Below are positions 5,291 to 30,159 of a stretch of 35,363 nucleotides of DNA, piece after piece. Within the stretch, counting starts at the first letter, position 1, and each line of letters begins with the position of its first letter. The translations under genes and the position numbers were made by a program. Under the pieces are notes generated by a model that was not told where the DNA came from, did not search any database, and saw only the letters and a list, made by a program, of their open reading frames with translations. Source of the DNA: a virus. The stretch lies in IMG/VR virus record IMGVR_UViG_3300045789_000515, positions 1 through 35,363 of that record; one strand, 5' to 3'.

Positions 5291-5687
5291 CGAATACCTT
5301 CACTTGCCATGAATAGGAGTAGAAACCAGCGGAATTAACCAGCCTTTTGGAAGGATTGCCGCGCAATTTGTAGCTAACCGGGGCAACCGGGCTGCCTGGC
5401 TCCCCCATCAGGTCCAGGGTGAACGGCTCGCCGGCGGCCACGGACATCAGGAACTCACGCATCTGGGCAAGCAGCGCCACATCATCAATGGCCACCGTGC
5501 TGAAGCTGTCCCGTTCTTCAATGCGGTAAAAGGTGGTGAAGTCCTTGCCGGAAAGCGTGGTGAGCGTGTTTTCCTCACGATTGAAGCTTGGAGAAACCCC
5601 CTCAATGCCCACTTCCAGCTCATAGGACTGTCCGGCAGTGTGCCCAGCAACAAGGCCGCGCTTTGCCGTGTAGATAATTACTGCCAT
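5277..5687 (-). CDS. Distal tail / minor tail protein
   Basis: 136 residues starting MAVIIYTAKRG. The ATG at 5687 is preceded by a GGAGAAAGC ribosome site, so I chose it over a start five codons upstream. The protein is soluble, with no signal peptide or membrane segment. It sits between the tape-measure block and the tail-tip gene and overlaps the latter by 14 bases. That position in siphophages is held by distal-tail or minor tail proteins linking tube to tip. I do not recognise a specific Pfam family, so the role comes from position and coupling. Confidence 0.75.
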   Translation of the reverse strand: MAVIIYTAKRGLVAGHTAGQSYELEVGIEGVSPSFNREENTLTTLSGKDFTTFYRIEERDSFSTVAIDDVALLAQMREFLMSVAAGEPFTLDLMGEPGSPVAPVSYKLRGNPSKRLVNSAGFYSYSWQVKVFDENA

Positions 5688-5753
5688 GCTTTCTCCAGGC
5701 ATAAAAGGGCCCCATAGGGAGGAGCCTGTGGCACTCTTTGCTTGGCTGTCATA

Positions 5754-5912
5754 TCAGGACATTGCCCGAATAAGCTCAGGGAGCCGCCAAATCACGAGCA
5801 GCACCACAGGCAGCGTTATCAGCGCCCAAAACCTTGAGTTCGGTATTTCCACGAGCAACCTCCTGACGTGCTTGGCAACTTCTCCCAAGCCCAAAAAATT
5901 GGTAAAGTTCAC
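5754..5912 (-). CDS. Small membrane protein in the tail module
   Basis: A 52-residue frame with a GTG start at 5912, preceded by AAGGAG eight bases upstream. An internal GTG at 5852 has an even better AGGAGG six bases ahead and would give a 32-residue form. The N-terminal half is a plausible amphipathic helix with basic residues (AKHVRRLL). It is followed by one hydrophobic segment (FWALITLPVVLLVIW, about residues 28-42) and a short tail. It lies directly after two terminators and before the distal-tail gene. Function unknown; two good ribosome sites argue that it is translated. Confidence 0.6.
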   Translation of the reverse strand: MNFTNFLGLGEVAKHVRRLLVEIPNSRFWALITLPVVLLVIWRLPELIRAMS

Positions 5913-6114: not shown

Positions 6115-6534
6115 TCAGTCGCAGGCCATTCGTATTACCTTCAAATTGAAACTGTCTCTGGTGCTCTCAACTACAACTTTGCCACCTGCAAGCTGCATAA
6201 ACCTTCGATAGCCTACATACCCGCCATACGAGTTCTTTGCATTAACCTCACCGCAAACAGCATGGTTGCCACTGTCATCCTTCATTCCGGCAACCTCATA
6301 TAAGTTGCGGAATTTGGCACTATCCGGGTCTTTCAGGCCATTCTTGGCAGCCTCCATGGCTTCAGCTGCTCTCTTTTCAGTTATTGGAAGCCTCTCTCTT
6401 GGCTTCTTGGGTGGCAAGGGCTTCTCTATCTTCTGGGATAATGTCGGTTCAGTCTTGCCCGGCGGAGTAGCGCACCCGTAAACAGCCAATACGAGAATCG
6501 GAATCAGGGCCGCCTTGCAGATCTTTGATGTCAT
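6115..6534 (-). CDS. Predicted lipoprotein encoded between tape measure and tail tip genes
   Basis: 139 residues from the ATG at 6534 (GGAAA-type ribosome site upstream). N-terminus MTSKICKAALIPILVLAVYG then Cys is a lipoprotein signal (lipobox V-Y-G|C). The mature part has a Pro/Lys-rich linker, a helix with LKDPDSAKF, then a C-terminal stretch with a conserved-looking CGEVNAKNSYGGYVGY core and a Cys near the end. A lipoprotein is not a virion part by default. Phage lipoproteins at such sites can block receptors (superinfection exclusion, as T5 Llp does), but that is inference. Tandem terminators follow immediately, which is typical of an inserted moron. No clear private promoter is seen in the 76-base gap upstream. 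Confidence 0.8.
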   Translation of the reverse strand: MTSKICKAALIPILVLAVYGCATPPGKTEPTLSQKIEKPLPPKKPRERLPITEKRAAEAMEAAKNGLKDPDSAKFRNLYEVAGMKDDSGNHAVCGEVNAKNSYGGYVGYRRFMQLAGGKVVVESTRDSFNLKVIRMACD

Positions 6535-6610: not shown

Positions 6611-9547
6611 TCAGTCCCCAGACAGTTCCCGGCCTTGGCGACTAGTCTTGTTGATAAGCACGTAATCAAGATCATTGATCTGCTCGCCCAGCTTGCCAAC
6701 CAGGGCTTGAGTGAGGCTGTCCTCATCCAACCCGTTCACGTCGCCTTGGAAGTAAATGTTTATCCCGTTGCCGTTACCACCGCCTGCCCCATCAAGCTGA
6801 ACAGGTGCCGGCGCAGCTGGAACCGTCTGAACTCCTCCGCTTATTCCAGGGCTTCCGCCCAAAGACCCACCTCCGCCTCCGCCAAAAGTGGTTGACTGAA
6901 TGGCGCTCACCCGCGCAAAGCCGGTCAGCAATAACGCAGCAGAAGCCGGGATTGCAGCCCATATTGGCAAGTCCTTAAAGACTCGAACAGAGCCGGCAAT
7001 GGTGTCTACGGTTGCTTGAGCGATTGCTGCCGCTTTGCCGATCTCAAACATCTTGCGGTTTTCGCTCGACATCAGGCCAGATAGCATTCCAAGGTATCCG
7101 CTCGTAATAGAAACCCGACTCTCCCATTCGGCTCTCTTCATCGCTGTCAGGTTTTTCTCATGGTTCTCCTCTTCGTCCATGATGGCAGCATCCCACTTAG
7201 CCTTATTGTCATAGTCAGCTGCGCGGGCGGCCTCAAGAATTTCTAGCCGGTTCTGGTGATGAAGATTAAGCAGCTCTTCCTCTGTTGCGTACTGCTCCAG
7301 AAGCTGCTCGCCTCCATCTATTTTCTTCTGCCGCTCTGCCTCCATCTCGGCAATGATTTCGGCTGCAGCCCGGCGCGACTCAAGGTTTCTCTCTATGGCG
7401 TCCTTCTCGGCCTCATGGGCATCAATAGTGGCGTATGCCTGCTCTGCGGCCCGGAGCTGACTCTGCGTGGCACCATCGACAGCCAGCTTGTACAGATCCG
7501 CCTGGGTGGCGGTCATGCCCAGGGTTTGGGCTTCAAGGTTCAGGGCGTCGATGCGCTTCTGGATGGCGTCGGAGCCGCCTGAGTTGCTGCCACCGCCAGA
7601 GGGCTTATCTTCCGGCTTATCGCCTGACCCGCTTCCACCACCTTCGGCGATCTCGAACAGCCGGGAGAATGTAGCCCGATAGTCCTCTGCTTTTTGCTGG
7701 ACTGTATCCAGCTCTGCACGCAGCTCAATAAGCCGTTTCTTCCAGTTATCCGCGCTTCGATCTTCTGGGTTTCGCTCAAGGAGTAACTGGTAGCTCTGGA
7801 TGCTGTTATAGAGACGGATCGCTTCGTCTTGCAGGTCCTCGAAGGGCTGCTCCAGGTCCATCAGCTTCTTCTGGGCCTGCGCTGATGTCAGTCGCTCGAA
7901 AGAGCCGGCCAGCTTGTCGATCTCGGAATCCAGATCAACGGCTTTCTCGCTTGCCTCATCAGCACTGGTGGCAAAGTAGCCCAGCGCCAGGACAGCGGTT
8001 GTCACCACCCCTACGGGACCACCCAGGAGGCCCATGGCACCAGATGCTGCCCGGGCGGCAACGCTGGCACGGCCTGATGCTACGGCTGCGGCATTTGCGG
8101 CAGCAGTATGCGCAGCCTGGGCGGATGAGGCTCTGGCCGTCGCCTTGGTCAGGTTGTCCATGGCGAAGGCGTGGGCATTGGTGCCTGCCGTGGCCTTGGC
8201 GTCCGCAATTGCGCGCTGCTGGATGGTACGGGCAGCGATCAGCTCCGCTTCAGTTCGGCGGGCAATGGCGGCCGTGGCCATGGCCTCTGCCTTGGCGTCC
8301 GCGATCGAGGCCACCACAGAGCGACCCTTGGCAGCTGCGTAGCTGGCAACAGCTGCCGTGGCCCTGCCGGCCACCAGAACCGCCAGGCCTTCGATGACGG
8401 CGGACAGCTGCTCGGTGCTCTCTTGAGCCTCACCCAGGGTGTCACCGTAACCAGACCACAGGCGGACTAGGTTGGTGGCTGTCTGGGTAGCAGAGCGCAT
8501 CAGCCCGGCCTGCGAGTCCCCGATACCGATAAACGCCACATCGACTGCACTGAAGAACGAATCAATATCACCCTGCAGGGTGTCGAGCTGATCAGATGCC
8601 GTTGCGGCGGCCTGTCCAGTAGATGCAAGGCGGCTTTCCATCGTCCGCAAAGCGGCTGAGCCATTGCTCAGCAGCGCGGCCAGTGCCGGCCCTGCCTCTG
8701 CCCCGAATACGGAAACTGCCTTGCTGGCCGTGACTCCCTGAGCCTCCAGATCCGCAATGATGTCCACCAGCGGCCGGAAGTTACCAGCAGCATCACGCAC
8801 GGAAACACCAAGGTCAGAAGCTTTTTCGGGCAATTCGTTGAAGATGGCGCGCAGGCCGGTACCGGCACGTTCGCCGTTACCGAATGCGGTGGTGAGGAGA
8901 CCGAGGGTGGCCGTCGTGGCCTCAAGGGACTGGTCGAGTGCTGCTGCTGTGGGGCCGGCATTGCGCATGGCCACCTGCAGGCGGTCCACATTCAGTGCGC
9001 TGGCACCGATAGATGCCGTAAAGACATCTGCTACGCGGCCAGATTCAGAGGCATCCAGCCGGAACTGATTGAGCGTTGAGGTCATCAGCTCAGTTGCTCG
9101 CCCCAGCTCCGCCTGCCCTGCCTCGGCCAGGTTAAGCACGTTCTCCAGGGAGGCCATCTGCTCTGTGGCGCTCTGGCCGCTTGAGGCCAAGGCATAGAGA
9201 GCTTCGGTGGTTTGAGCTGGGTTGAACCGGGTGGAAGCAGCAGCTCGGAGGGCGGATTCTGCCAGCTGATCCAGCTCCTCCGCCGTGGCGCCGGATACAG
9301 CGCCCACGTTCTTCATCCCCTGTTCGAAACTGGCTGTTCCCTGGAGGATGGAACGGAAGAACTGTGAAGTAGCAACAGTGGCCAGCGCGGCGCCAAGCAG
9401 CTTCAGGCCACCGGTCATCTGATCCGTGGCACGGGTTACCTTGCCCTCGGTCAGTTCGGCTTGACGCCCCAGGCGATCGAGGTGGCGCTGACCTCCATCG
9501 ACTTGGGTGCTATCAACCGCCAGTACGAGACGCGCTGTTTCTGTCAT
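6611..9547 (-). CDS. Tail tape measure protein
   Basis: 978 residues. The N-terminal ~80-260 region (VSGATAEELDQLAESALRAA onward, with many TEAL/ASSGQS and GLRAIFNEL motifs) matches the TP901-type tape measure domain. The middle is Ala-rich and helical with a short hydrophobic stretch (GAMGLLGGPVGVVTTAVLAL). Long charged coiled-coil helices follow, then a hydrophobic segment near residue 870 and a Gly-rich C-terminus. The gene overlaps the frameshifted chaperone by 35 bases, the standard gpG/GT-H arrangement. At about 0.15 nm per residue (known for the family) the tail would be roughly 145 nm long. Confidence 0.95.
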   Translation of the reverse strand: MTETARLVLAVDSTQVDGGQRHLDRLGRQAELTEGKVTRATDQMTGGLKLLGAALATVATSQFFRSILQGTASFEQGMKNVGAVSGATAEELDQLAESALRAAASTRFNPAQTTEALYALASSGQSATEQMASLENVLNLAEAGQAELGRATELMTSTLNQFRLDASESGRVADVFTASIGASALNVDRLQVAMRNAGPTAAALDQSLEATTATLGLLTTAFGNGERAGTGLRAIFNELPEKASDLGVSVRDAAGNFRPLVDIIADLEAQGVTASKAVSVFGAEAGPALAALLSNGSAALRTMESRLASTGQAAATASDQLDTLQGDIDSFFSAVDVAFIGIGDSQAGLMRSATQTATNLVRLWSGYGDTLGEAQESTEQLSAVIEGLAVLVAGRATAAVASYAAAKGRSVVASIADAKAEAMATAAIARRTEAELIAARTIQQRAIADAKATAGTNAHAFAMDNLTKATARASSAQAAHTAAANAAAVASGRASVAARAASGAMGLLGGPVGVVTTAVLALGYFATSADEASEKAVDLDSEIDKLAGSFERLTSAQAQKKLMDLEQPFEDLQDEAIRLYNSIQSYQLLLERNPEDRSADNWKKRLIELRAELDTVQQKAEDYRATFSRLFEIAEGGGSGSGDKPEDKPSGGGSNSGGSDAIQKRIDALNLEAQTLGMTATQADLYKLAVDGATQSQLRAAEQAYATIDAHEAEKDAIERNLESRRAAAEIIAEMEAERQKKIDGGEQLLEQYATEEELLNLHHQNRLEILEAARAADYDNKAKWDAAIMDEEENHEKNLTAMKRAEWESRVSITSGYLGMLSGLMSSENRKMFEIGKAAAIAQATVDTIAGSVRVFKDLPIWAAIPASAALLLTGFARVSAIQSTTFGGGGGGSLGGSPGISGGVQTVPAAPAPVQLDGAGGGNGNGINIYFQGDVNGLDEDSLTQALVGKLGEQINDLDYVLINKTSRQGRELSGD

Positions 9548-16042: not shown

Positions 16043-17468
16043 CAGCGTCATCCAGGGCAAGGCCGGTTCCGCTTTCGCCTACTTCCTCGCGCACTTCGTC
16101 ATCGGTCTTTTCTGAATCAATCAGACCGGTGCGGCGCATCCACGCCCACACGTCAGTCTCAGGAACAGCGCCGCTCATCCAGGCCGCCACAATCTCACGC
16201 AGCAACTGGGAATCCAGCGTGTGTTCCACCAGATCCTGATTGAGCAGATAGGACACATCACCAGACGCGCCCATGAACTCGGCGCACCACTCAAGGCACT
16301 TGGTGTACGCCTCGGATACATTGGCGGACGCCAGAGACAGAGCCGAGTGCTGTGCCGCGTCATCGCTGTTCACTTCCGTGGCCGTCTTGATTGCGCTACC
16401 GACCTGCATCAGCCTCGCGCCAAGGCTTGTCATTCTTTCTTCTATCTTGCCAGGCTCTTCCGCCAAACCCGTGTCAGAACTCATTGTGGCTATGCCGAAC
16501 GAACCACCCTCTGGGAGCATAATCGGCGCCCTTGATCCAAACAAAACGCCCCTTTTTTCCAACATTTCTACCCACTGCTGGGTCAGTCCTGCCATCCAGG
16601 GCTGGCCCATGCCCACATAGTGCAGCGAGTTATACCAGCTTGCCTGAATTTGATAGTGGGTTATGTTTAGCCTTGCCAGATCCAGCAGTGGCGCCTTATC
16701 AATGCTGCTTTCATTGTTCTGCGCACCCACAAAAGTGAAGGGTATGCGGTTCCACGGCGCACCGTTTCCGCGCTTGGGAATGTACTGTTGGTGGATTTCC
16801 CATGCCGTGCCCTTTTCATTCGCACGCCAGACGGTGACCTGGTAAAGGCCCTCTACCAGTTGCAGCACTCGGTACTGCTCGATTTCATCAACGCTGAAAC
16901 CGTCCTCCGCCACTTCTTCTGCTGTTTCTTTAAGCACAATCAGCGACAATAGATGAGCGCCGCCCACCTTCGTGGTGCGCCAGTTGGTGATCTGCTCTGC
17001 TTGATAGCGAACAATGCTGGCGCGGACCAGGCCGGCGTTTTGGTCGGCCCGCGAGGCCGGGGCCTCTGCATTGGGGTAATCCACCAGCAGGCCTTCGCGG
17101 CCCTTGCCCATGACGTTTTCGAGGACACGCTGGCTCTGCTGAAAGATGCTTACCCCGGCGCCATCAACATCAGTGGAGACATAATCCAGACCAGCCTGCA
17201 CTTCCAGCTCAGGGTCTTTGCGGAATACCGCACCGATCAGCCCTTGAAGAGTGTGCCCGGTGACGTTGTAGAAGCTGGCCCGCTGCTTGTAGCGGTCATA
17301 GACGGCTTTCTTCTCGCCCGGCTCCTCTTCCACCGCTGACGGGTTCGGCAGATACGCCTCGCCCTTGGCTTTGACTTTTTCCTCACCGGCAACAACGTCC
17401 GCGACCAACTCCCAGCTGGGCAGCGCAGCGTCGTAATCGCCTCTCGTGTAGGTAACGTCTTTAGCCAT
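16029..17468 (-). CDS. Portal protein (DUF4055 type)
   Basis: 479 residues. MAKDVTYTRGDYDAALPSWE is followed by a Y-L-P-N-P motif and FYNVTGHTLQGLIGAVFRKD, matching DUF4055 phage proteins that occupy the portal position. The C-terminal half is helical (ERMTSLGARLMQVGSAIKTA; ATEVNSDDAAQHSALSLASA), as in the crown and stem of portals. Start overlaps the TerL stop as TAATG. It forms the dodecameric ring at the packaging vertex. Confidence 0.9.
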   Translation of the reverse strand: MAKDVTYTRGDYDAALPSWELVADVVAGEEKVKAKGEAYLPNPSAVEEEPGEKKAVYDRYKQRASFYNVTGHTLQGLIGAVFRKDPELEVQAGLDYVSTDVDGAGVSIFQQSQRVLENVMGKGREGLLVDYPNAEAPASRADQNAGLVRASIVRYQAEQITNWRTTKVGGAHLLSLIVLKETAEEVAEDGFSVDEIEQYRVLQLVEGLYQVTVWRANEKGTAWEIHQQYIPKRGNGAPWNRIPFTFVGAQNNESSIDKAPLLDLARLNITHYQIQASWYNSLHYVGMGQPWMAGLTQQWVEMLEKRGVLFGSRAPIMLPEGGSFGIATMSSDTGLAEEPGKIEERMTSLGARLMQVGSAIKTATEVNSDDAAQHSALSLASANVSEAYTKCLEWCAEFMGASGDVSYLLNQDLVEHTLDSQLLREIVAAWMSGAVPETDVWAWMRRTGLIDSEKTDDEVREEVGESGTGLALDDADGGT

Positions 17469-18784
17469 TAGTAATTCATTCTCAGTGTTGTGGTGATTGC
17501 CGCACGCTCAAGCGGCCACTCCACATCAACCATGTAGCCAATGGCAGTGGTGATGTGCTGGTAATCGTTCTTCTGGTCTTCCTGGAAAGTGGAGCCTTCT
17601 TGAAGCTGGACAGTTGCCAAGCCCTTGTGGCTCCACGGCGCGGTAACCGGGTTTACAAACAAGTGCCGCTCGCCGGCCGCATTCAGAATTCTTGCCCTGA
17701 CTGCGTTCTGCCGGTCTTTGATGGCGGGCGCCTTCTTCTTCACCTTCCTGGTGAACTTCCAGCCATTTGCCCTGAGCACACCCTCAATATCGGTGTAATC
17801 CGAAGCGTGGCCGTGCTTCTCGCCAGCGCGGCCGGCCGGATCCCCGTAAATCAGCACGTGCTTGTTTTTGTGGTCTCTGAACTTCTCCACAAACTCATCA
17901 GCTGACTGCCTGCTGATGGCGCTTGTGAGCACGATTTCATCCAGTAGATAGAGATCGTCATTCCGGACAACGCCAACCGATGAGGAAAGTGGCGTGTAGT
18001 TCTGGTCATGCATCCAGCAAAGCTGCTCATGAGGCTCAATAACAGCATCTGTCTGGTTGGCCTTGCTGTAGTCCTCATAGATGCGGCCGGTTGCCGTTTC
18101 AAAGCTGGCCTCGAATTCCTGCCGGAACTGCTTTGAGGACATTTGCCGCTTTGCTGACGCAATCACATCAGCCGGCAGAATTTCTGATGACTTCCAGTGA
18201 AACAGCGCCCACTCATGGTCATTCGCCGTTTCGGCGTACTGAGCCATTTCGTAGTAGTGGTTCAGGCCATCCGGAACACCCAGCAACCAGCACCAGGCGC
18301 GGTAATCCGGCCGGGTTGGGTTTACTGTGTTGAGGGCCGGGAGAATATGGGCCTCCCAGGACTTGCCCTTAATGTCGGCAATCTCGTCAATGCCGCCACC
18401 GGTCCACTGGATACCCTCGATACGCTCCGGCCGGTCAAGACCGATAAGGTGTATCTCTGTGCCATTGGGCATGAAGATAATGCGGTCACTTTCAGACGGC
18501 CGCTTTGCGTGGGTACATGAGAGAGTCAGCTTCTTCATGTCATCCCAGTAAATCTTCTTCACCTGGTCGTGCGTTGGCGCACCGATGAAGTATTTCTCTC
18601 CCGGCCGCTTCATGGCCTCCTTGGCAATAAAGCGTTTAAACCTCTCGGTCTTGCCTGACCGCCGGCCAGCCGGAACCACGGGGAACCTGACCCCTTCAGA
18701 GACAGCCTTAATCAGCGCCAATTGGACAGGATGATCCTTGAGCGGATACCACCTCTCCATCTGGCGCTGAAGCTGGATATTCAT
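17468..18784 (-). CDS. terL: Terminase large subunit (ATPase-nuclease)
   Basis: 438 residues. Walker A is GRRSGKTE (40-47) and Walker B is GGGIDEIAD (129-137) with the catalytic DE pair. The nuclease domain follows: MHDQNYTP (Asp260), HVLIYGDPAG (Asp315) and the C-terminal NDYQHITTAIGYM motif, equivalent to the usual final metal-binding Asp/His-x-x-D-A-(I/L)-G-Y region. It packages DNA through the portal and cuts concatemers. Start overlaps the TerS stop (TAATG). Length is normal for the family. Confidence 0.95.
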   Translation of the reverse strand: MNIQLQRQMERWYPLKDHPVQLALIKAVSEGVRFPVVPAGRRSGKTERFKRFIAKEAMKRPGEKYFIGAPTHDQVKKIYWDDMKKLTLSCTHAKRPSESDRIIFMPNGTEIHLIGLDRPERIEGIQWTGGGIDEIADIKGKSWEAHILPALNTVNPTRPDYRAWCWLLGVPDGLNHYYEMAQYAETANDHEWALFHWKSSEILPADVIASAKRQMSSKQFRQEFEASFETATGRIYEDYSKANQTDAVIEPHEQLCWMHDQNYTPLSSSVGVVRNDDLYLLDEIVLTSAISRQSADEFVEKFRDHKNKHVLIYGDPAGRAGEKHGHASDYTDIEGVLRANGWKFTRKVKKKAPAIKDRQNAVRARILNAAGERHLFVNPVTAPWSHKGLATVQLQEGSTFQEDQKNDYQHITTAIGYMVDVEWPLERAAITTTLRMNY

Positions 18785-27127: not shown

Positions 27128-27147
27128 GATTACCTCCGTAGACTCAG

Positions 27148-27176
27148 AATATAACCAATATGGTTATATCAAACAA
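27148..27176 (-). promoter_or_regulatory. Early promoter pR
   Basis: Minus strand: TTGTTT (27176-27171), exactly 17 bases, TATATT (27153-27148; 5 of 6 to consensus). The perfect operator palindrome 27151-27167 overlaps the spacer and -10, so bound repressor would block polymerase. It drives the Cro-like gene and early operon. Confidence 0.72.
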
Positions 27177-27207
27177 CACCTTTTCGGTTATTCACCAGAA
27201 AGGTTAT
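27151..27207. promoter_or_regulatory. Right operator cluster (OR): three palindromes
   Basis: Consensus ATAACC-N5-GGTTAT. O1 27151-27167 is perfect. O2 27175-27191 (AACACC-TTTTC-GGTTAT) and O3 27191-27207 (TTCACC-AGAAA-GGTTAT) each keep one perfect half-site and 4 of 6 in the other. The graded quality and three sites between cro and cI genes match lambda OR. Confidence 0.82.
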
Positions 27208-27242
27208 TTGCTGGGAGAATATGTGCTCACTTCGGAGGAGCC

Positions 27243-27905
27243 ATGGATTCCAAAACTATCCGGTATAAAAACACCCGGTACTTGGTGCACTCTGTTGGCG
27301 GCGTGTCTGCCTTTGCTGAAAAGCTAGGCAAGCAGCAGTCACAGGTAAGCGCCATTGCTGGGGAGAGCCCGGTTAAAGGAATTGGGCCAAAGATCGCCCG
27401 GCAGATTGAAACTGCATTTGGTAAGGCGAATGGGTGGTTAGATGTTCCGCATCAAGACATGTGGGAGGGTGGCTCAAATGTCGAGGAGGCACCAGCCCCT
27501 TACGGAGTCAGGCAGGCGCCCGTGATTAGCTGGGTTCAGGCTGGGGAATGGTCTGAGGCTGTAGACCTGCATCAGCCAGGATATGGTGATGCTTATGAAG
27601 CAGTGCCAGACAGCTCTGGGCAGCATGTTTTCTGGCTGCGAGTAGTGGGAGACTCTATGACCTCGCCAACGGGAGCCAGCATACCGGAAGGCCACCTCAT
27701 TCTGGTTGATCCTGACCGTGAGCCCATAAATGGCAGCCTGGTGGTTGCGAAACTGGAAGATAGCCAGGAGGTAACCTTCAAAAAACTCGTTATCGACGCA
27801 GGGCAGAAATACCTCAAACCTCTAAACCCTGACTACAAGACAACTCCCATCAACGGAAACTGCCGGATTGTCGGCGTAGTTATAGAGGCCAAGATAAAAT
27901 TTTAA
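27243..27905 (+). CDS. CI-like repressor with S24 self-cleavage domain
   Basis: 220 residues. The ATG at 27243 follows CGGAGGAGCC; the frame extends upstream through the operators, but that is not credible. An N-terminal helix-turn-helix (YLVHSVGGVSAFAEKLGKQQ and QVSAIAGESPVKGIGPKIAR) is followed by an Ala-Gly cleavage bond in SWVQAGEW (100-101). The catalytic Ser lies in VVGDSMTSPTG (138) and the Lys in VVAKLED (170). All parts of a LexA/CI repressor that cleaves itself with RecA are present. It keeps the lysogen by binding OR and OL. Confidence 0.93.
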   Translation: MDSKTIRYKNTRYLVHSVGGVSAFAEKLGKQQSQVSAIAGESPVKGIGPKIARQIETAFGKANGWLDVPHQDMWEGGSNVEEAPAPYGVRQAPVISWVQAGEWSEAVDLHQPGYGDAYEAVPDSSGQHVFWLRVVGDSMTSPTGASIPEGHLILVDPDREPINGSLVVAKLEDSQEVTFKKLVIDAGQKYLKPLNPDYKTTPINGNCRIVGVVIEAKIKF

Positions 27906-27932
27906 ATGTTCAATAATGCTCAAGGAGGGAAC

Positions 27933-28493
27933 ATGAAGAAAGCAGCAATAGCTGGCATCCTGTGCGCGCTGGCCGGCGGCGCAATCGCCGATGCAAAGTT
28001 GGCAAAAGGCGCACTTCCCGCACAGATCTACAACAAGTCATATCAGCAGTACACCAAAGAGCTCGAGGCTGCCATTAAACTACAGACCAAAAACCAGAGA
28101 TGTGCGGTTGTTCAGTATGGCGCTGTATCAAGCAGCAAGAGCCGCCCAGGATCCCCGGTGTTCTTTGTGAATTGTGACGGTCACGATGGAAGCACATTTA
28201 ACACCTGGTACACCCTGGATGACATCAAAAAGGGGCAGGCAAAGTCTACCGCAAACCTTTCTGCCGATGATGTGCGATCGAAATGCTTCAATGCCATCAA
28301 AAGCAAGCTGAACCAGCCTTCCACTTTTTCCCCTCACCTTTTAGATTATTCCGTCAGGAATTTGAATAATGGTCGGAGCCAGGCCCGAATAGGCTTTACT
28401 GCGGAAAACATGCTGGGTAATGAGTTGGACTATGTGGCCCAATGCCTTGTTGGCCCATCTACACCAGCCGAAGTAACCATCCAAGAGAAGTAG
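27933..28493 (+). CDS. Secreted protein co-encoded with the repressor
   Basis: 186 residues from ATG 27933 with AAGGAGGG upstream, 27 bases after the repressor stop. MKKAAIAGILCALAGGAIAD is a clean signal peptide (cut after AIA). The mature protein has four Cys: NQRCAVVQYGAV, VFFVNCDGHDG, DVRSKCFNAI and DYVAQCLVG, so two disulfides are possible. No terminator separates it from the repressor gene and one follows it, so it should be expressed in the lysogen. That suits a conversion or superinfection-exclusion factor (inference). Not recognised by family. Confidence 0.82.
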   Translation: MKKAAIAGILCALAGGAIADAKLAKGALPAQIYNKSYQQYTKELEAAIKLQTKNQRCAVVQYGAVSSSKSRPGSPVFFVNCDGHDGSTFNTWYTLDDIKKGQAKSTANLSADDVRSKCFNAIKSKLNQPSTFSPHLLDYSVRNLNNGRSQARIGFTAENMLGNELDYVAQCLVGPSTPAEVTIQEK

Positions 28494-28503
28494 CCCACCC
28501 CCC

Positions 28504-28536
28504 AAGTCGGTCATTTCGGGCCGACTTTCTTTTTTC
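28504..28536 (+). terminator. Intrinsic terminator closing the repressor operon
   Basis: AAGTCGG (28504-28510) and CCGACTT (28521-28527) form a 7-bp stem with a 10-base loop, then TCTTTTTTC. It stands between the secreted-protein gene and the left operators, insulating lysogenic from lytic transcription. Confidence 0.8.
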
Positions 28537-28543
28537 TGGAAAT

Positions 28544-28603
28544 ATAACCTTTTTGGTGTTGCCAACCGAATAACCTTTGTGGTTATATAACCATATTGGT
28601 TAT
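28544..28603. promoter_or_regulatory. Left operator cluster (OL): three palindromes
   Basis: O4 28544-28560 (ATAACC-TTTTT-GGTGTT), O5 28570-28586 (ATAACC-TTTGT-GGTTAT) and O6 28587-28603 (ATAACC-ATATT-GGTTAT). O5 and O6 are perfect and abut directly. They precede the plus-strand early operon. A promoter pL must overlap them; TTGCCA (28559-28564) with TATATA (28584-28589), spacing 19, is a weak candidate. Confidence 0.82.
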
Positions 28604-28624: not shown

Positions 28625-28939
28625 ATGAACTCAGCCCTCAGAAACCAGCAAGCCATGGCCAGCGCGCAAGCGGCGTATGACAACGCCCTGCCGGTGGACG
28701 ATCTGGATTTCCTGGACGACGACAAAACCGACTTCGACCGGGAAGAGGAAGAGGCGCTGGCCGAAACCGGAGCTGGCCGGGTTATCGAACCGGAACAGCT
28801 GTGGGCGGCCCTTCGCCGCAAGCCTGAGTTTCGGGCCGTTCTGGACAACGTAATCACCGAAATGATGGACGACGAGCGTTACCAGCAGGCCCGCGACGAG
28901 CGCATGAAGCTGGACGCACAACAACGGATGGAGCCGTAA
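28625..28939 (+). CDS. Acidic unrecognised protein, first gene after OL
   Basis: 104 residues from ATG 28625 (CCCGGAGCCAGAC upstream). A very acidic centre (VDDLDFLDDDKTDFDREEEE) and a helical C-terminal part (EQLWAALRRKPEFRAVLDNV; MDDERYQQARDERMKLDAQQ). In lambda this place is held by the N antiterminator, but N proteins have an Arg-rich start, which is lacking. Possibly a host-factor binder or DNA mimic; no function recognised. It is followed closely by the next gene. Confidence 0.75.
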   Translation: MNSALRNQQAMASAQAAYDNALPVDDLDFLDDDKTDFDREEEEALAETGAGRVIEPEQLWAALRRKPEFRAVLDNVITEMMDDERYQQARDERMKLDAQQRMEP

Positions 28940-29436: not shown

Positions 29437-30159
29437 ATGCCGTTTTCAGCGTTCAACAACGACCCAAGTTTCAAGCAACAGATGATTGATCTGGCAGTCA
29501 AGCATCGCGAGGCCGATGAATTCCTTAAGGGGACTTATGGGCAGGAAGGCGAGCGATTCCAGGCTTGCTCTGTCGGCTGCTCTGTGCGCGATCTTGACCC
29601 GGAACGCGATCTTAATGATTTGGGCGATCACGGTTTCTTGGCTGACAAGCTGGGCGTGCCTGAGTTTGTGTGCCGCTTGCAGGACCGCATCTTCGAGGGC
29701 CTGCCGGACCCGAAACACATTGAGTGGACAGAGCGCCTATTCACTGCGATCCCGGCGGGTTCGGACCTTTCTGGTGTGCAGCCCCGATTTCTGGCAGCGG
29801 TCCAGCGCCGGGCACTGGATCGGATTGGCTCGACCAAGTTCCCCGAGATTTATTCGGCAATCCAGGGCGTGATTGAGGTTCTGGACGACTGGGCAGAAAC
29901 AGGGGCTGTCGATGAATTCGCGGCGCGGTCGGCGGCGGAGTCGGCGGAGTCGGCGTGGTCGGCGGCGTGGTCGGCGGCGGAGTCGGCGTGGTCGGCGGCG
30001 TGGTCGGCGGCGGAGTCGGCGGCGGAGTCGGCGGAGTCGGCGTGGTCGGCGGCGTGGTCGGCGGCGTGGTCGGCGTGGTCGGCGGCGCGGTCGGCGGAGT
30101 ACGAATGGATGGCCGACACGCTGATTGACCTCATAGAGCAAACCCAACAACAGCGCTGA
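29437..30159 (+). CDS. Protein with a (W/E/R)SA(A) repeat helix
   Basis: 240 residues, ATG 29437 after AGGAGAGACCA. The first ~160 residues are globular and not recognised (YGQEGERFQACSVGCSVRDL; RFLAAVQRRALDRIGSTKFP). Residues ~164-220 are sixteen units of 3 or 4 residues, each Trp, Glu or Arg followed by Ser-Ala(-Ala). The 3/4 alternation puts the large residue on a and d of a heptad, so one long amphipathic helix with Trp/Glu faces is likely. It ends EYEWMADTLIDLIEQTQQQR. Role unknown; a terminator follows. Confidence 0.8.
   Translation: MPFSAFNNDPSFKQQMIDLAVKHREADEFLKGTYGQEGERFQACSVGCSVRDLDPERDLNDLGDHGFLADKLGVPEFVCRLQDRIFEGLPDPKHIEWTERLFTAIPAGSDLSGVQPRFLAAVQRRALDRIGSTKFPEIYSAIQGVIEVLDDWAETGAVDEFAARSAAESAESAWSAAWSAAESAWSAAWSAAESAAESAESAWSAAWSAAWSAWSAARSAEYEWMADTLIDLIEQTQQQR
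29926..30096 (+). repeat. In-frame 9/12-bp tandem repeat
   Basis: 171 bp of units TGG, GAG or CGG followed by TCG GCG (GCG). All units are multiples of three, so slippage changes length without breaking the frame. A larger block (GAG-GAG-TGG-TGG order) occurs twice. Other frames and the reverse strand are also open here because of composition. Confidence 0.9.

Follow-up and report, generated by a model that had tools for sequence, protein, structure and literature searches.

The DNA analysed here (the window) comprises positions 1–35,363 of IMG/VR virus record IMGVR_UViG_3300045789_000515, a linear record of a temperate siphophage-type genome. The late genes are on the minus strand and include those encoding the terminase (17468–18784) and the tape measure protein (6611–9547), the left operon runs on the plus strand from position 28626, and a lambdoid immunity region lies between the left operon and the late genes. 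No integrase gene was found in the window record; five sister phages carry one, either near the record end or further inside, and the window record was therefore probably cut before its own. Further into the left operon, an ORF at 29437–30159 (plus strand) has a low-complexity repeat tail of the WSAAESAW type.

The repressor gene (27243–27905, plus strand) encodes a 220-residue S24 protein of the CI/C2 type (Peptidase_S24, PF00717, E = 1.8e-28), which is 45–49% identical over ~90–99% of its length to the repressors of Klebsiella phage Chronis, Salmonella phages L and ST64T and phage 434. A 17-bp operator, ATAACCNNNNNGGTTAT, is found at six sites with 0–2 mismatches (three of them exact) and nowhere else in the window, a match total reached by no shuffle. 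Three OR sites precede the repressor gene, at 27151–27167 (a perfect ATAACC-N5-GGTTAT), 27175–27191 and 27191–27207 (two mismatches each), and three OL sites follow at 28544–28560 (two mismatches), 28570–28586 and 28587–28603 (both perfect). A candidate PR promoter (27146–27176, minus strand; TTGTTT-17-TATATT or TTGATA-15-TATTCT) straddles the operator at 27151–27167, and a candidate PRM for the repressor (27191–27220, plus strand; TTCACC-18-GAGAAT with an extended −10 TGG) has its −35 element overlapped by the operator at 27191–27207. Both promoters were assigned by consensus match only, and the PRM candidate scores below a stricter promoter scan.

The repressor operon contains a second gene, which encodes P0001, a secreted four-cysteine protein of 186 residues (27933–28493, plus strand; PHROG_29597) with its ATG at 27933 and its stop codon at 28491–28493. 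The ATG is separated by 27 bases from the repressor stop, which ends at 27905, and is preceded at a distance of three bases by a perfect ribosome site, AAGGAGGG (27922–27929). A longer start at the in-frame ATG 27906 was rejected, as no ribosome site precedes it and the signal peptide would be hidden inside the longer product. The operon is closed by an intrinsic terminator (28504–28535, plus strand), which consists of a hairpin at 28504–28527 and a T-run (MFE −13.4 kcal/mol, z = −3.7, with 0 of 200 shuffles as good). It follows the secreted gene, with no other convincing terminator in the operon, and its hairpin ends 16 bases before the OL operators.

Inspection of the P0001 sequence and its hydropathy identifies a Sec signal peptide, MKKAAIAGILCALAGGAIA (27933–27989), followed by DA, with predicted cleavage at AIA/DA; the hydropathy profile contains no further hydrophobic segment past this peptide. 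Assignment as a lipoprotein was rejected, as there is no lipobox at C11 (GILC) and the AIA/D Sec site is found instead. The mature protein contains four cysteines (C57, C81, C118 and C171) and, as judged from the sequence, is predicted to be a soluble periplasmic product. The preliminary description of this locus had pointed to a secreted four-cysteine protein, a 27-base gap, a strong ribosome site, a terminator just before OL and a lambdoid layout with the gene in a rexAB-like slot, and all of these are borne out, with three OR sites before the repressor, the secreted gene behind it and three OL sites after.

Domain structure and relatives of P0001

The AlphaFold model of P0001 (mean pLDDT 80, pTM 0.48, 12 sequences) consists of two alpha+beta domains. 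The N-terminal domain (28035–28232), delimited from the model and the alignment, contains C57 and C81; the C-terminal domain (28254–28484), delimited from the model, comprises a helix and four strands and contains C118 and C171. The homology and structure search proposed in the preliminary description was productive in part. P0001 matches PHROG_29597 in a profile search over residues 46–172 (E = 3.6e-10), and its Foldseek matches among viral predicted structures include a lipoprotein of Gordonia phage Sidious (probability 1.00), although the viral lipoprotein matches cover mostly one domain and are counted as support only. No family was found in Pfam or NCBIfam and no profile match in PADLOC-DB; in the PDB, a sequence search was of no help and Foldseek returned nothing at E ≤ 0.001, with low top TM-scores. 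None of the homologues found has a known function.

The closest relatives of P0001, at 68% identity, are encoded by two IMG/VR phages (L006 and L007). Relatives at 23–37% identity are found in a gonococcal prophage, a Helicobacter pametensis prophage (with a near-identical protein on IMG/VR contig L009), Pasteurella phages Pm86 and Pmp12, Pseudomonas phage VW-6S and the Pectobacterium plasmid Drgb1. Two scans of bacterial genome contigs gave no relatives, with automatic peptide patterns that were probably poor, so that the bacterial distribution is under-sampled. The 2.17-Mb gonococcal record (L004, NZ_CP119142.1) is listed as a plasmid and is evidently a chromosome; in its prophage, genes for a KilA-N/antirepressor-like protein and a terminase lie downstream of the one for the homologue (324 residues).

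C57, C81, C118 and C171 are invariant across the full-length relatives. Two short members, an unannotated ORF of Burkholderia phage Bcep176 and an ORF of a human-faecal phage, consist of the C-terminal domain alone and contain the second cysteine pair only, the Bcep176 cysteine aligned at column 81 being its lipobox cysteine. Because the C-terminal half occurs alone with its own two cysteines, we infer from the alignment one disulfide per domain, C57–C81 and C118–C171. The membrane anchor differs among the relatives: a lipobox in VW-6S and Bcep176, a transmembrane helix in the Neisseria, Helicobacter and Pasteurella proteins and a plain signal peptide in others. Since the anchor varies, the constant feature is a domain outside the cytoplasmic membrane. 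The PHROG_29597 profile is dominated by longer, membrane-anchored tail-region proteins of Pasteurella phages, which have the cysteines in common with P0001.

The genes of the relatives occupy moron positions, either in the repressor operon or next to genes for the tape measure, the tail tip or the terminase; those of the Pasteurella phages and VW-6S are directly upstream of the tape measure gene, where position alone would also fit a role in tail assembly or in the virion. The preliminary description had named as evidence against its proposal a homologue with an unrelated proven role, such as that of a virion component; the relatives found instead combine moron positions with signal peptides, lipoboxes or membrane anchors.

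A second protein of the window belongs to what may be a wider family. The lipoprotein encoded at 6115–6534 (minus strand), whose gene directly follows that of the tape measure protein, contains a DPDSAKF/VNAKN domain (PHROG_2320) and is probably a second envelope moron of the same phage. P0001 itself has no direct match to PHROG_2320. Members of its family match weakly (P0010, E = 0.0018; the Bcep176 ORF, E = 1.6e-4), and hhalign places the C-terminal domains of the two families in register with a score of 30.2 (E = 3.6e-4, probability only 37%), compared with a best score of 19.5 among 100 column-shuffled decoys. The C-terminal domain of P0001 is thus likely, but not proven, to be a remote homologue of the PHROG_2320 domain. 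This likely related domain and the moron-type gene positions are all that would link the PHROG_2320 lipoproteins to P0001; their VNAKNSFGGY motif and cysteine spacing differ. Genes of the PHROG_2320 type are found between tail genes K and I in KpLi5, Fraca and AUS531phi, between the late-control region and the integrase gene in SEN5, and upstream of an endolysin gene in PAJU2; in Bunnybear the gene lies between those for the tail chaperone and the tape measure but on the other strand. All of these are moron positions. In AUS531phi the domain is fused to a peptidoglycan-binding SPOR domain (PF05036, E = 7e-16).

The repressor-operon slot in sister phages

Anchoring on the first left-operon gene (28626–28939, plus strand) identified 15 loci of the same lineage, among which L034 and L035 are the same contigs as L006 and L007. 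In L006 and L007 the relative of P0001 is kept behind a different repressor, with operators of the ACAC...GTGT type. Downstream of the secreted gene, L006 carries a 49-codon relic of the C-terminus of another S24 repressor (8563–8718, plus strand), 88% identical to the corresponding part of the repressor of phage CBW1004C-Prop1, which would represent the fossil of an immunity swap. The arrangement is consistent with entry of the repressor and the secreted gene as one unit, replacing an older repressor. A possible toxin–antitoxin pair (a weak BrnT-like match, E = 0.0015, and a CopG-like antitoxin) is also encoded in L006, at 8784–9461 (minus strand), between the secreted gene and OL and antisense to the repressor operon.

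The slot is empty in L030, L031, L032 and L036; L030 and L031 have the operators of the window, and the repressor of L036 is 85% identical to the L006/L007 type. Elsewhere it is occupied by other genes: a PADLOC defence candidate, PDC-S42 (E = 1.1e-101), shortly downstream of the repressor in L037 (4878–5825, plus strand), a DUF7946/DUF7947 protein in L042, opposite-strand genes in L041 and L044, and in L033 (5147–5795, plus strand) an outwardly rexAB-like pair of a CxxC zinc-ribbon-like protein and a coiled-coil/transmembrane protein. L038 and L039 carry in the same slot (5447–5794, plus strand) a different signal-peptide protein, of the DPESAQF...VNAKNSFGGY type (PHROG_2320, E = 1e-20); a 19-nt sequence at the gene start, AAGGAGGGAACATGAAGAA, is identical in this gene and the P0001 gene, and the same phage encodes a second protein of this kind elsewhere in its genome. 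For the L038 slot protein, AlphaFold prediction from the single sequence gave a model too poor for use (pLDDT 44). As the slot genes of the lineage do not all encode secreted proteins, a function in the envelope does not follow from the slot itself.

Comparison of the mature part of the P0001 gene with that of L006 gives a dN of 0.22 and a saturated dS of ~3.3; P0001 is under strong purifying selection and is selected as a protein. The lowest GC3 values among the 36 window genes are those of the lipoprotein gene at 6115–6534 (0.54), the repressor gene (0.54) and the P0001 gene (0.56), compared with a median of 0.68; accessory genes that were acquired recently usually stand out by such low GC3. 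We conclude that 27933–28493 is an accessory gene of the lysogeny operon, or moron, and not a virion gene.

Comparison with known systems and proposed role

A close parallel to P0001 is Glo of Vibrio phage K139, a small, Sec-exported, soluble periplasmic exclusion protein encoded in the lysogenic operon cI-orf2-glo-int, which P0001 resembles in operon and predicted location. The two are without sequence relation (hhalign probability 0.2%) and P0001 was rejected as a Glo homologue; Glo has 137 residues and two mature cysteines compared with four in P0001, and in K139 another gene separates cI from glo, whereas the P0001 gene is directly behind the repressor gene. The preliminary description knew of no described system with this protein. 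This is accurate for the exact protein family, which is uncharacterised, but a soluble periplasmic exclusion protein from a repressor operon was already known in Glo. Its reading of the gene as a lysogeny accessory gene with a possible part in exclusion is reasonable and supported in part.

In gene position, P0001 agrees with cI-rexA-rexB of lambda and with genes 45-44-43 of Gordonia phage CarolAnn, in which the genes directly behind the repressor are coexpressed with it; CarolAnn 43 and 44 are viral defence genes. Those systems consist of a cytoplasmic and a membrane protein for which abortive infection has been proposed, whereas P0001 is a single secreted protein without a transmembrane segment in its mature part, and the RexAB type was discarded on this basis. 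Ltp of TP-J34, gp15 of HK97 and SieA of P22 are prophage proteins that prevent DNA injection from within the cytoplasmic membrane or at its outer face. Ltp and gp15 act via the tape measure protein, SieA via the ejection proteins. They are membrane- or lipid-anchored and differ in fold from P0001, which is predicted to be unanchored, with a two-domain disulfide fold; P0001 does not qualify as a superinfection-exclusion lipoprotein of the Ltp type, having neither a lipobox nor a lipid anchor.

By analogy with these systems, we propose that P0001 acts in superinfection exclusion, in the periplasm and at the stage of genome entry, as the product of a lysogeny-expressed moron, a reading to which we assign a probability of roughly one half. 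It is favoured because known repressor-operon genes function mainly in exclusion or defence and because known envelope exclusion proteins act on entry; the step from a periplasmic lysogeny protein to blocked entry is one that we infer. As suggested by the gene layout, transcription from PRM, controlled by the repressor at OR, would yield a single message for the repressor and the secreted protein that ends before OL. P0001 would then be exported by Sec, lose its signal peptide and remain in the periplasm as a soluble two-domain protein, each domain probably closed by one disulfide. In a lysogen it would most likely stop superinfecting phages in the periplasm, as their genomes enter the cell, with the conduit formed by tape-measure or ejection proteins, or a host factor used by that conduit, as a possible target. 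Such an activity would complement the repressor, which stops only phages that share its operators.

The foremost alternative, although a doubtful one, is a role in lysogenic conversion in which P0001 would change the host envelope without any part in exclusion and help the lysogen to withstand stress, predators or competing bacteria. Lambda bor and lom are examples of such conversion. A secreted, constrained protein in a lysogeny slot would suit this role, as would the SPOR fusion of the related C-terminal domain and the occurrence of PHROG_2320 matches in two control bacterial genomes as well; against it, slots of the same lineage hold a defence-candidate family and a membrane pair, and the genes known from repressor operons serve mostly in exclusion or defence. 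Less probable still is a block of adsorption rather than of genome entry, in which an outer-membrane receptor would be masked or altered from the inside, as FhuA is by Cor. Systems of this kind are common in prophages and the periplasmic location permits one, but P0001 lacks a lipobox and hence an outer-membrane anchor, and the mixed anchors of its relatives (transmembrane, lipobox or none) point to no single membrane.

The ORF could also be real and yet not expressed with the repressor, being transcribed from its own promoter or in the lytic cycle only. A weak −10-like TAAAAT at the end of the repressor gene would speak for this, but we regard it as quite improbable: the 27-base gap is without a good promoter, the two genes share a strand that is opposite to PR and the late genes, the terminator comes only after the second gene and the PL transcript starts beyond it. 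A virion or tail-assembly protein, which might be suggested by the relatives encoded directly before tape measure genes, is the least probable explanation, as the P0001 gene belongs to the repressor operon, runs in the opposite direction to all late genes, encodes a Sec signal and is missing from sister phages.

The periplasmic class of exclusion proteins is poorly populated: it has few members, and both mechanistic detail and structures are scarce. P0001 offers a family to which no function has been assigned. The position of its gene implies that lysogens express it, a single lineage provides natural pairs of phages with and without the gene, and one disulfide per domain amounts to a testable pairing rule. 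More tentatively, the AKN-motif domain may be the module that unites a large and uncharacterised group of proteins for phage exclusion in the periplasm, encoded in repressor operons, tape-measure neighbourhoods and tail-tip loci of many phages of Gram-negative and actinobacterial hosts, each version blocking the genome-entry machinery of different phages. If the DPxS...AKN lipoproteins do act alike, 'hypothetical' genes beside the tape measure genes of many phages would become predictable superinfection-exclusion factors. As a point of annotation, the lipoprotein ORF of Bcep176 (L027; 4878–5216, plus strand) is a real ORF of 112 residues at a locus where gp24–gp26 have been called on the opposite strand.
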